IMG/VR virus record: IMGVR_UViG_3300028573_000050 | Location: 1 to 25,168 of that record | Length of the DNA stretch: 25,168 nt | Direction: 5' to 3' (one strand) | Origin: a virus | Part shown: positions 277 through 16,773 of the stretch, piece after piece | How the letters are laid out: every line of letters starts with the position of its first letter | How positions within the stretch are numbered: position 1 is the first letter of the stretch | Made by a program: the position numbers and the translations under genes | The notes under the pieces: generated by a model | The model's input: the letters and a program-made list of their open reading frames with translations, nothing else | The model's database searches: none | What the model was told of the DNA's origin: nothing

Positions 277-957
277 ATGGCAAATAGAAGACTGACACAG
301 TTCATGTATTCATTACATGCAATGCCTGTGTTGTTAGACTGCAACTTCGTTGTAGATTCTACGAATGGCAATGGCTTAGGAATCCGATCTTTAAAAGGAC
401 CCGGCATTCAAGCTGTATATATGCACACAAGTGCAACTCCAGACCCTAAGAACCCTAATCCTGCTTCAGGAACGATTGTTGTACAACTCCAAGACAACTA
501 TAATCGCTCTTTCAGCGGATTTGATTCCAGAGTCTCTCCTGTAAGTGGATCTGCATTAAAGATCGACAACTCAGCTTTAACGGCTGGTGTTGCTTACATC
601 ATCACCACACTTGGCGATGCTACAGTGGCTCAATGGGTTGCTTTAGGCGTGCCAGTTGGTGTAACTCCTGCAGTGGGCGTAGCGTTCATTGCAGCTAGTG
701 TTGGCGCTGGATCTAATAGCTCTAGCTCGCGTGTTATGGCTACAGCAGCTTCAGGCACAGGCGTGGCTAGTATTGAGACAGTTGGTGACCCCAACCTCTC
801 TATTGCTCCTTTAGCTTCCGCTGGACAAGGATATGGCGCAAGCTTCATCCTCCAATGTCGTGATTATGCTGGTGCTTTAGTAGCTCCTGCAGATGGATCT
901 GTTATCAGCTTAGCCTTCTACCTCAGTAATTCGAGTGTAAAAGTACAAGGTGAATAA
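277..957 (+). CDS. Putative virion protein (226 aa, function unknown)
   Basis: The ATG at 277 has an AAAGGA ribosome binding site 7 nt upstream, the same style as other late genes here. The product has no signal peptide or membrane segment. It is rich in Ala, Gly, Ser, Val and Thr and reads as mainly beta, for example the stretch around residues 44-75 (IQAVYMHTSATPDP then GTIVVQLQDNYNRSF) and a C-terminal ISLAFYLSNSSVKVQ. That profile is typical of phage structural proteins such as decoration, head-fibre or minor tail proteins. It lies between a tail adhesin end and a connector gene. I do not recognise a specific family; the structural role is inferred from context. Confidence 0.6.
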   Translation: MANRRLTQFMYSLHAMPVLLDCNFVVDSTNGNGLGIRSLKGPGIQAVYMHTSATPDPKNPNPASGTIVVQLQDNYNRSFSGFDSRVSPVSGSALKIDNSALTAGVAYIITTLGDATVAQWVALGVPVGVTPAVGVAFIAASVGAGSNSSSSRVMATAASGTGVASIETVGDPNLSIAPLASAGQGYGASFILQCRDYAGALVAPADGSVISLAFYLSNSSVKVQGE

Positions 958-968
958 ATAGCTTCCCC

Positions 969-990
969 GATCTATCTTTACAGATAGGTC
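969..990 (+). other. Hairpin after the virion gene
   Basis: GATCTATC (969-976) pairs with GATAGGTC (983-990), 8 bp with one G-T wobble, around the loop TTTACA. It is the first of several consecutive hairpins in the 958-1129 spacer. The downstream bases are A-rich, so it is not a convincing terminator by itself. Confidence 0.4.
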
Positions 991-996
991 TAAAAT

Positions 997-1019
997 GCGT
1001 TTAAACCCCCTTTAGACGC
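997..1019 (+). terminator. Candidate terminator hairpin downstream of the 277-957 gene
   Basis: GCGTTTAAA (997-1005) and TTTAGACGC (1011-1019) form a 9-bp stem with one wobble and a CCCCC loop, followed by GTTATT. It is located about 40 nt after the stop of the preceding virion gene. The T-tract is short, so termination would be partial at best. Confidence 0.4.
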
Positions 1020-1030
1020 GTTATTGAAGT

Positions 1031-1079
1031 GGGGCCTGGGGTCCAGCTAATACTTAGCTGCTCTAGGCCCCTATAGGGG
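1031..1079 (+). other. Long GC-rich stem-loop in the leader of the homing endonuclease
   Basis: GGGGCCT (1031-1037) pairs with AGGCCCC (1065-1071). An inner 7-bp hairpin, CAGCTAA (1044-1050) with TTAGCTG (1054-1060), sits inside it. The right arm overlaps the palindrome CCCCTATAGGGG (1068-1079), so two mutually exclusive folds are possible. A further 5-bp hairpin, GGGCT/AGCCC, follows at 1097-1111 just before the ribosome binding site. This is much more structure than other spacers on this strand show. Confidence 0.45.
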
Positions 1080-1129
1080 GCTATAAAGGACTAAATGGGC
1101 TATATAAGCCCCGATAAGGAACTAAAGAT

Positions 1130-1528
1130 ATGTCAGCACCTGCAATACCCCGTAAGAACTGCAAGGCTTGTAATACAGAAAAGCCTATGTCTGAGTTCTA
1201 TTCTCACAAACGGGATGGATTTCAATCTAGATGTAAGCCGTGTCAAAGAGCGTACACTAAGCCAAACGATAGAAAAATACACTTAAGACGTAAGTTTGGT
1301 ATGAGTTTAGATCAATATAATAATCTATTTAGGAAACAATCAGGCAAATGTGCAATTTGTGAAGCGCATCAATCTAGTCTAAAAGTATCTTTATCAGTCG
1401 ATCATAACCATAATACTGGAACTCTTAGAGGATTGCTTTGTACTCAATGTAATTTTGCTCTTGGAGCTATGAGAGAAGATAAAGACTCTATTAAAGCTAT
1501 GATTACATATTTAGAAAGGTATCAATAA
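1130..1528 (+). CDS. Endonuclease VII-type HNH homing endonuclease, fused to the captured start of the connector gene
   Basis: The 132-residue product has two zinc-binding parts. The first uses C11, C14, C35 and C38. The second is the endonuclease VII/HNH core: C74-x2-C77, the DHNHNTG motif (D91, H92), the RGLLC segment, and C104-x2-C107 followed by N108. This is the recombination endonuclease VII family fold (Pfam Endonuclease_7), widely found as free-standing homing endonucleases in phages. An AAGGA site lies 9 nt before the ATG. Its stop overlaps the next ATG by one base (TAATG). Residues 1-8 (MSAPAIPR) are identical to residues 1-8 of the downstream FN3/connector protein but are written in different codons, and are not part of the nuclease family. 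I infer insertion into that gene near codon 8. It probably nicks or cleaves DNA of related phages lacking the insert; a resolvase role is less likely here. Confidence 0.88.
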   Translation: MSAPAIPRKNCKACNTEKPMSEFYSHKRDGFQSRCKPCQRAYTKPNDRKIHLRRKFGMSLDQYNNLFRKQSGKCAICEAHQSSLKVSLSVDHNHNTGTLRGLLCTQCNFALGAMREDKDSIKAMITYLERYQ

Positions 1529-2532
1529 TGAGTGCACCAGCTATTCCGCGAGGGCTCATAGCCCAACAGGGTAATGGCCAAGTGTGGCTCACTTGGGATA
1601 CTATTGCCGGGGCTACATCCTATAAGATCCAAAGATCATTAGATAATATTACCTATAGTTCATTAGCTACAGTCACAGTACCTCAGTACTTAGATGCATC
1701 TGTTGTCATAAATACTGAATACTTCTACCAAGTTGCATCAGATAATGGTACAACAAGTGCCTATTCTGAGGCTCAATCTGTTGTTCCTGTAGGCACCGGT
1801 AAGATGACCTTAGGCCAACTCAGAACATTATCCCAACAAAAGGCCGATAGGGTTAATAGCCAGTTCGTTACAGAAGCTGAGTGGAATACATACATTAATC
1901 AGTCTTATTTTGAGCTCTATGACCTTATGGTACAGAAGTATGGCAATGAGTACTTCATGGCTGAGCCTCTTCTTGTCACCACAGACGGTAATACACGCTT
2001 CCCCTTGCCTGATGGTGTTAATAATGGTGGTGCTAGACCATTCTATAAGCTATTAGGTGTTGACCTTGCATTAAACAACGCTTCTAATGCATTTCTCACT
2101 CTCAAACGATTTAGCTTTATAAATAGAAACCAATACATTTACCCTCAACTTACAACTAATATGTTAGGCTGGGGATCTCTCGCATATCGACTTGAGGGAG
2201 ATTACGTAGCTTTCATTCCCACACCCCAAGCAAATCAAATACTTAGGCTTTGGTATATACCGAGGATGCAGACTCTCCTAAAAGATACAGATGTAGCCGA
2301 TGGGGTCAGTGGTTGGGTTGAGTATATAGCTGTAGATGCTGCTATTAAGGCTCTTATGAAAGAAGAGTCTGATGTATCAGCTCTTATGGTGCAAAAGCAA
2401 GCTCTAATTGACCGTATTGAGGCTGCTGCTGAGAATAGAGATGCTGGAGAGCCTGAGCGTATCAGTCCCACCCGACAAGCTACAGACTATTATGGTTCTG
2501 GTCCCTTTGGCGGCCAATTTGGGGGCTATTAG
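1528..2532 (+). CDS. Head-tail adaptor/connector-like protein with N-terminal FN3 domain
   Basis: Residues 1 to about 88 form a clear fibronectin type III domain: the PAIPRGL entry, QVWLTWD, SYKIQRS, the EYFYQVAS strand and the SAYSEA end. From about residue 92 the sequence changes to an alpha-helical phage adaptor pattern (LGQLRTLSQQKADR, then TEAEWNTYINQSYFELYDLMVQ). Similar proteins sit below the portal of short-tailed phages. The C-terminus is Gly-rich. Translation starts at the ATG in TAATG, coupled to the endonuclease stop, with GAAAGG inside the endonuclease 3' end serving as ribosome binding site. The start codons repeat the endonuclease N-terminus with synonymous changes, so this start may have been supplied by the inserted endonuclease gene. 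The FN3 domain is clear; the adaptor assignment is moderate. Confidence 0.72.
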   Translation: MSAPAIPRGLIAQQGNGQVWLTWDTIAGATSYKIQRSLDNITYSSLATVTVPQYLDASVVINTEYFYQVASDNGTTSAYSEAQSVVPVGTGKMTLGQLRTLSQQKADRVNSQFVTEAEWNTYINQSYFELYDLMVQKYGNEYFMAEPLLVTTDGNTRFPLPDGVNNGGARPFYKLLGVDLALNNASNAFLTLKRFSFINRNQYIYPQLTTNMLGWGSLAYRLEGDYVAFIPTPQANQILRLWYIPRMQTLLKDTDVADGVSGWVEYIAVDAAIKALMKEESDVSALMVQKQALIDRIEAAAENRDAGEPERISPTRQATDYYGSGPFGGQFGGY

Positions 2533-16060: not shown

Positions 16061-16255
16061 TTAATTCACCAACTTACTTCTACTCTTAACATAGAAGTTA
16101 TCATAAGTCTTAGGAACATCATAAGATGTTACATCCTTATAGCTTACCACTCTCATATCTTTAATGATAGCTAATAGTTCTAATAAGGACTTTACCCTAT
16201 ACCCAATTGTTACCTCTTTACCACCTTCAATTACCCGCACTAAATAAGTCTTCAT
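16061..16255 (-). CDS. Hypothetical small protein (64 aa)
   Basis: GGAGG lies 4 nt before the ATG at 16255, and the start overlaps the stop of the upstream homing endonuclease (ATGA). The protein begins MKTYLVRVIEGGKEVTIGY, continues with a Leu/Ile-rich helix (LLELLAIIKDMRV) and ends with Tyr/Lys-rich residues. It resembles small phage proteins with a beta-beta-alpha start, but I cannot assign a family. Downstream is the predicted structured RNA, with no further gene for about 170 nt. Confidence 0.6.
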   Translation of the reverse strand: MKTYLVRVIEGGKEVTIGYRVKSLLELLAIIKDMRVVSYKDVTSYDVPKTYDNFYVKSRSKLVN

Positions 16256-16773
16256 TCTTCCTCCTTATGTTTATTTAAATATACTATAGCCTTTTGTAAT
16301 AAGTCTACTGAATCTTTTAGTTTGCCTAAACCAGAATTACAATGCCAACACAGTAAGCCTCTAATTCTACCTGTTTTATGGTCATGATCTACAGCTAGAG
16401 TCCTTGATACTTTTTGCCTAGAATCAAATAGAGTCTCTTCATTGAAACAAATTGCACAAGTATTATTCTGTTCTTTAAGAAGTTTATTAAAGTCTCCTAT
16501 ACTCAATCCAAAGTTCTTTTTAAGAGAGTATCCCTTAAATTTATCTTTATTAGCTTTTCTATAATCCCTAGCTCTTTTATTTATCTTATCTCTATTCATA
16601 ATGTAGTACTCCCTTCTAGGTTTATTGCGATTCTCTGGATTCTTCTTATGAAGAGAGGTCCTATAAACATTCCTACAATCCTCACAACGTTTTCTTATAC
16701 CGTCTGGTTTGATCGAAGGATGCTTATAGAACCTCGCATCATCTTTATCTAATTTACATACTGAACAGATCAT
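16252..16773 (-). CDS. Endonuclease VII-type HNH homing endonuclease (173 aa)
   Basis: This is a longer relative of the nuclease at 1130. The N-terminus has one zinc cluster (C3, C6, C30, C33), followed by a Lys/Arg-rich helical linker (about residues 42-88) likely to contact DNA. The endonuclease VII core then follows: TCAICF (C106, C109), AVDHDHKTGRIRGLLC (D129, H130) and CWHCN (C142, C145, N146). The ATG overlaps the collagen-like gene's stop by one base (TAATG) and no own ribosome binding site is visible, so translation is probably coupled. It overlaps the next gene by 4 nt. Family members act as homing nucleases or junction-resolving enzymes; a second copy of the same type in this window favours homing. 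Confidence 0.86.
   Translation of the reverse strand: MICSVCKLDKDDARFYKHPSIKPDGIRKRCEDCRNVYRTSLHKKNPENRNKPRREYYIMNRDKINKRARDYRKANKDKFKGYSLKKNFGLSIGDFNKLLKEQNNTCAICFNEETLFDSRQKVSRTLAVDHDHKTGRIRGLLCWHCNSGLGKLKDSVDLLQKAIVYLNKHKEEE

Follow-up and report, generated by a model that had tools for sequence, protein, structure and literature searches.

In the window analyzed here, a complete IMG/VR record of 25,168 bases, an Endonuclease VII-family nuclease gene and the virion gene directly behind it begin with the same eight residues, MSAPAIPR, written in different codons. These residues appear to be the start of the virion gene, which the nuclease would have taken over together with the leader in front of it. 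The nuclease gene (132 aa) occupies positions 1130..1528 and the virion gene, which encodes a protein of 334 aa with an FN3 domain (about residues 1-93) and an SU10-type adaptor domain, positions 1528..2532, both on the plus strand. We consider it probable that a homing-like nuclease gene captured the adaptor start, that a second, orthologous start lies behind it, and that two lineages were joined there by repair. The same arrangement is found in IMGVR_UViG_3300031240_000051, with a single difference in 3,755 bases.

The first copy of the start (copy A; 1130-1153, plus strand) is of adaptor type and is fused in frame to the nuclease. It reads ATG TCA GCA CCT GCA ATA CCC CGT. The second (copy B; 1528-1551, plus strand) is the functional adaptor start and reads ATG AGT GCA CCA GCT ATT CCG CGA. 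Both code for MSAPAIPR, so that ATG plus seven codons agree at 8 of 8 residues and at 16 of 24 bases. Six of the seven codons after ATG differ synonymously, with serine encoded by TCA in copy A and by AGT in copy B. On recount, we obtained the same coordinates at 1130 and 1528, residues, base and codon counts and serine switch as an earlier sequence-only reading of this DNA.

The nuclease matches PF02945 at 8e-23 (80.6 bits, against a cut-off of 23.6) and the PHROG endonuclease VII at 8.8e-38. The Pfam match covers residues 51-129, the C-terminal part of the protein, where the conserved catalytic motif VDHNHNTG (residues 90-97; 1397..1420, plus strand) aligns with that of the T4 Endo VII and Hpy99I structures. 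The D-H-x-H motif and two zinc-binding C-x2-C pairs are invariant in one alignment of relatives and nearly so in another. By sequence, the best match with a solved structure is the restriction enzyme Hpy99I (residues 8-132), with T4 endonuclease VII behind it. DHHRN homing endonucleases such as F-CphI carry the Endo VII motif in their C-terminal part, behind an N-terminal region, and Fang et al. found this C-terminal arrangement in the homing/restriction clade, not in the resolvase clade (PMC6083498). The window nuclease has the same C-terminal motif, and Hpy99I belongs to that clade. Unlike F-CphI, it has no associated group I intron that we could find, and cleavage and homing, which are properties of F-CphI, are putative here. 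Neither a group I intron nor an intein is indicated: positions 900-1700 gave no Rfam match, the nuclease ORF ends at a stop codon of its own, and the next gene has a separate start.

The relatives of the nuclease begin to align at its residue 9 (K-N-C), which places MSAPAIPR outside the nuclease family and bears out the earlier suggestion that these residues are foreign to it. The reading frame holds no ATG, GTG or TTG between codon 1 and Met20; the nuclease protein therefore needs the start at 1130. Its closest annotated relatives (about 40-45%) are the gene 13.5 Endonuclease VII proteins of T7-like phages, Yersinia phage phiYeO3-12 and its relatives among them, and like these the window nuclease lies between virion genes. 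In contrast to it, T7-like 13.5 opens at once with M/V/L-K-x-C, close to where gene 13 ends, and has no copy of the next gene's start. Another Endonuclease VII-family gene of the window lies in its early region (16252-16773, minus strand) and has no N-terminus in common with its neighbor.

The adaptor gene product matches FN3 structures by profile at 1.6e-11. PF24175 (SU10_adaptor) is matched by 5 of 13 aligned relatives, at best with 2.5e-8, and not by the window protein itself; the label "FN3/connector" given from sequence alone was thus right in substance. Because INPHARED phage records held no relative of the adaptor (nor any of the 1005-aa gene), its relatives, about a hundred, were all taken from IMG/VR; an adaptor-profile scan of prokaryote genomes gave weak FN3-type matches and nothing more. 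Most of these relatives have no nuclease ahead of the adaptor, and their first residues follow the pattern M-x-x-P-x-x-P (MAAPATP, MAIPATP, MPAPSTP). The sister of the window adaptor in the adaptor tree, L196 (support 100/99), begins with MSAPAIPSNL and is preceded by a trypsin-like gene, not a nuclease. Since nuclease-free relatives, L196 included, natively begin in this way, comparison of the sequences indicates that the nuclease bears the adaptor gene's start and not the reverse, in line with the earlier assignment of the eight residues to the FN3 domain. At the DNA level, the relatives' starts match copies A and B at only 10-18 of 24 bases, these relatives not being close. Copy A scored higher than copy B against 23 of 39 relatives' starts, lower against 9 and equal against 7, but the comparison is confounded by the serine codon and we draw nothing from it.

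Several relatives (L003, L143, L152, L159, L182 and L261-L266) have the adaptor domain without an N-terminal FN3, which makes FN3 an optional addition at the N-terminus. The virion gene upstream of the nuclease in the window (277..957, plus strand; 226 aa, no family match) stands before the adaptor gene in most relatives. It is tandemly duplicated in L141 (3652-5018), L270 (4001-6083), L257, L296 and L003, and the tandem copies can be recognized by identical or near-identical N-termini, e.g. MANRNWAS.

Judged by sequence, the takeover of an adaptor leader is clearer in two of these relatives, L145 and L146, than in the window. In nuclease-free L144, the leader ACAAGGAGTTAGT-ATGGCTGGA (fuller, GGCGAATAACTCCACTAATTACAAGGAGTTAGT-ATGGCTGGAGCC) stands directly before the adaptor. 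A leader matching that of L144, TCAAGGAGTTAGT-ATG (TCAAGGAGTTAGT-ATGGCTAGA), precedes an Endonuclease VII gene (PF02945) in L145, and the same TCAAGGAGTTAGT-ATG leader precedes a nuclease of a different type, HNH, in L146. The L145 adaptor starts with MAGAPGIPQG, as in L144, and lies behind the nuclease with unrelated sequence upstream of it. The leader folds into a hairpin over the ribosome binding site, and compensatory changes in it are seen among L144, L216, L356 and L249, all nuclease-free (pairs were counted by script on hand-aligned arms). In L145 and L146, the hairpin over the ribosome binding site is found before the nuclease and is absent before the adaptor. As it stands in the four nuclease-free genomes, this hairpin looks like a translational control of the adaptor gene.

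A nuclease is present at the adaptor junction in the window, L041, L145 and L146, and absent from it in L144, L249, L216, L105, L196 and many others, a distribution of the kind known for free-standing homing endonuclease genes. Nuclease-free L249 adjoins L145 in the adaptor tree, so the nucleases were gained separately. The nuclease of L041 is without a captured start. Beyond the ATG, L146 took no adaptor codons and L145 at most a few; a long capture is therefore seen once. Within about 6 kb of virion genes, L041 (681-6285) carries three Endonuclease VII genes and one GIY-YIG/NUMOD3 gene.

In the window itself, the intergenic leader that now lies ahead of the nuclease (958..1129, plus strand) is structured, with at least three strong hairpins. 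Its fold z is -4.2 as a whole and -3.3 over the last 110 bases, while the stretch before the window adaptor is unstructured (+0.5). Among 37 nuclease-free adaptor leaders, the median fold z was -3.1 and 78% fell below -1.5. The window leader aligns to no relative at the DNA level. The hairpins could instead be the 3' end of the upstream gene; a leader is favored because L197-L204 have another upstream gene and keep a hairpin before the adaptor nonetheless. We found no RNA family (Rfam) or terminator in 900-1700, a range that takes in the very stable multi-hairpin structure at 958-1129; structured adaptor leaders are common in relatives.

The nuclease start at 1130 is preceded by AAGGA (1116..1120, plus strand), its probable Shine-Dalgarno sequence. 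It had been proposed that the nuclease kept the old ribosome binding site and start. This stands insofar as leader and start are of adaptor type; either copy could be the one native to this genome. For the adaptor, the probable Shine-Dalgarno sequence is GAAAGG (1514..1519, plus strand), and the nuclease stop overlaps the adaptor start in TAATG (1526..1530, plus strand), which may couple the translation of the two genes. The further proposal that the 3' end of the nuclease supplies the new adaptor start agrees with this layout, in which the site (GAAAGG being putative) lies inside or overlaps the nuclease reading frame.

In the account that we favor, a free-standing, homing-like nuclease gene of Endonuclease VII type entered at the start of the FN3/adaptor virion gene. 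The nuclease would cut nuclease-free adaptor genes near their start and would then be copied into them by repair. It would have been joined in frame after the eighth codon of an adaptor start, and its translation would use the adaptor's start codon (copy A), together with the ribosome binding site and the structured leader before it. The adaptor would keep its full-length frame through a second, orthologous start (copy B) directly behind the nuclease, and would be translated from GAAAGG at 1514-1519 with the help of coupling at TAATG. The likeliest source of copies A and B is a pair of diverged parental lineages that recombinational repair joined here. Phage nucleases have been described at boundaries of genetic exchange (PMC10448857). 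The nearest relatives of the window adaptor, L196-L204, lack the upstream gene, and the nearest relatives of the upstream gene (L141, L144) have distant adaptors, which suggests a mosaic breakpoint at this junction. Of the two gene trees built for a mosaic origin, that of the adaptor gives a clear sister, that of the upstream gene has low support, and the breakpoint is unproven; the L141 adaptor falls near the window's group in the adaptor tree.

The divergence between the two copies is of an ordinary kind. One of seven codons is identical between A and B, where 2.4 of seven are expected from independent draws on phage codon usage (P(<=1)=0.25); where adaptor orthologues have the same residue, they use the same codon in 37-44% of cases. 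Codon usage is alike in the two copies, each of which contains common and rare codons. Since the codon identity fits both independent choice and the level seen among orthologues, the synonymous differences amount to ordinary orthologous divergence, and no selection against a repeat or a cleavage site is needed to account for them.

Two readings would derive both copies from one genome. An old duplication of the start at insertion, repair-generated or target-site-like, could have been followed by synonymous drift under selection on both N-termini. This would require one genome only and would presumably yield both copies at once, but it needs nuclease residues 2-8 to be under selection, although nuclease relatives lack them and adaptor relatives vary at several of these positions. 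We consider it unlikely: two-lineage joining is preferred because synonymous divergence is saturated while not one residue has changed, in a segment on which the nuclease family places no constraint, and this disfavors an old intragenomic duplication. We give as little credence to the explanation offered by the sequence-only reading, in which the nuclease gene inserted after codon 8 in one genome and selection then recoded the copy downstream, doing away with the direct repeat or with the cleavage site. The residues are unchanged although six of the seven codons differ, and serine moves between TCN and AGY, as such recoding would have it. However, a single codon in common out of seven is what independent choice can be expected to give (P=0.25), orthologues are at a similar level (37-44%), and insertion at that point could not alone have put a new set of eight codons behind the nuclease. 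On these comparisons, the takeover appears better supported than the sequence alone had allowed, and its recoding part is not supported.

We then compared N-termini across neighboring genes. The fetched loci gave 922 distinct pairs of adjacent genes, of which four agree at 7/7 residues after Met: the pair in the window and three pairs made up of tandem paralogues. When the next gene was compared for 73 distinct Endonuclease VII-type genes, the window's alone exceeded 3/7. The sharing of eight residues between non-homologous neighbors goes beyond chance. The shared N-terminus might have been acquired or kept because it is functional in both proteins, e.g. as a virion-targeting or translation-efficiency tag, and all eight residues are indeed kept despite divergent codons. 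Yet no other of the 73 nucleases has its neighbor's N-terminus, and adaptor genes without a nuclease ordinarily enter FN3 with these residues, which makes such a tag very improbable. Likeness by chance or convergence, to which the shortness of the stretch would lend itself, can practically be set aside, as 0 of 2 million random N-terminal pairs matched at 7/7 and all other 7/7 neighbors were paralogues.

The capture of a host gene's end by a mobile nuclease has a counterpart in fungal mitochondria, where endonuclease-carrying mobile ORFs are found in Allomyces macrogynus atp6 and in Glomus sp. atp6, atp9, cox2 and nad3 (PMC3630166). These ORFs bring along a foreign C-terminus that is close to the displaced copy in protein but far from it in DNA (63.5% DNA identity for Glomus atp6), the differences being largely synonymous. 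The piece on the element makes the protein whole again, and the native copy ends up behind the ORF (PMC3630166). In the window, too, an endonuclease ORF is flanked by the host gene's terminal coding piece twice, alike in protein and diverged in DNA. Unlike the fungal cases, it is an N-terminus that is duplicated, in a phage and over 24 bp only; the nuclease would be driven by the displaced start, and a foreign source for one of the copies, a feature of the fungal elements, is putative here. By analogy, the window arrangement appears to be the 5'-end counterpart of these C-terminus-carrying ORFs. In the literature searched, which left most subscription journals outside, we came across no phage nuclease described as bearing the start of its neighbor, and no 5'-end case. 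In another virus group (L059, L062, L070, L074 and L081), a gene ending in ...AWKC has at its stop the start of an Endonuclease VII-type gene, which itself ends in ...KWKC, with a flanking direct repeat around TGGAAATGTTGAGT. This is possibly a 3'-end version of the same behavior.

Among the free-standing seg/mob nucleases of T4, 6 of 12 have no discernible translation initiation region and 5 overlap the upstream ORF (PMC2988022). The window nuclease resembles them in lying between conserved phage genes, and spread by double-strand-break repair with co-conversion would be expected (PMC2988022). Its stop-start overlap, TAATG, is like the UAAUGA of T4 nrdA/mobE (PMC2988022). In the window, by contrast, it is the nuclease that has a well-formed leader, and coupling would fall to the gene that looks essential.

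Start takeover at virion genes may even be a recurrent strategy of phage nucleases, as the window, L145 and L146 could illustrate, a generalization that we advance tentatively and regard as doubtful. The nuclease would occupy the target gene's regulated leader, and this essential gene would come to depend on a stop-start overlap and on a ribosome binding site that lies within the nuclease ORF; late-gene expression would thereby be borrowed, and clean loss or frameshift of the nuclease would be costly. Mobile nucleases between phage genes are often coupled behind the upstream gene. Here, the order would be reversed: a virion gene would lose its regulated leader and its start to the nuclease and begin anew behind it. 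The arrangement offers a searchable signature, a nuclease with its neighbor's N-terminus in diverged codons, and, if the proposed takeover is true, it would explain how nucleases gain expression and persistence without splicing.
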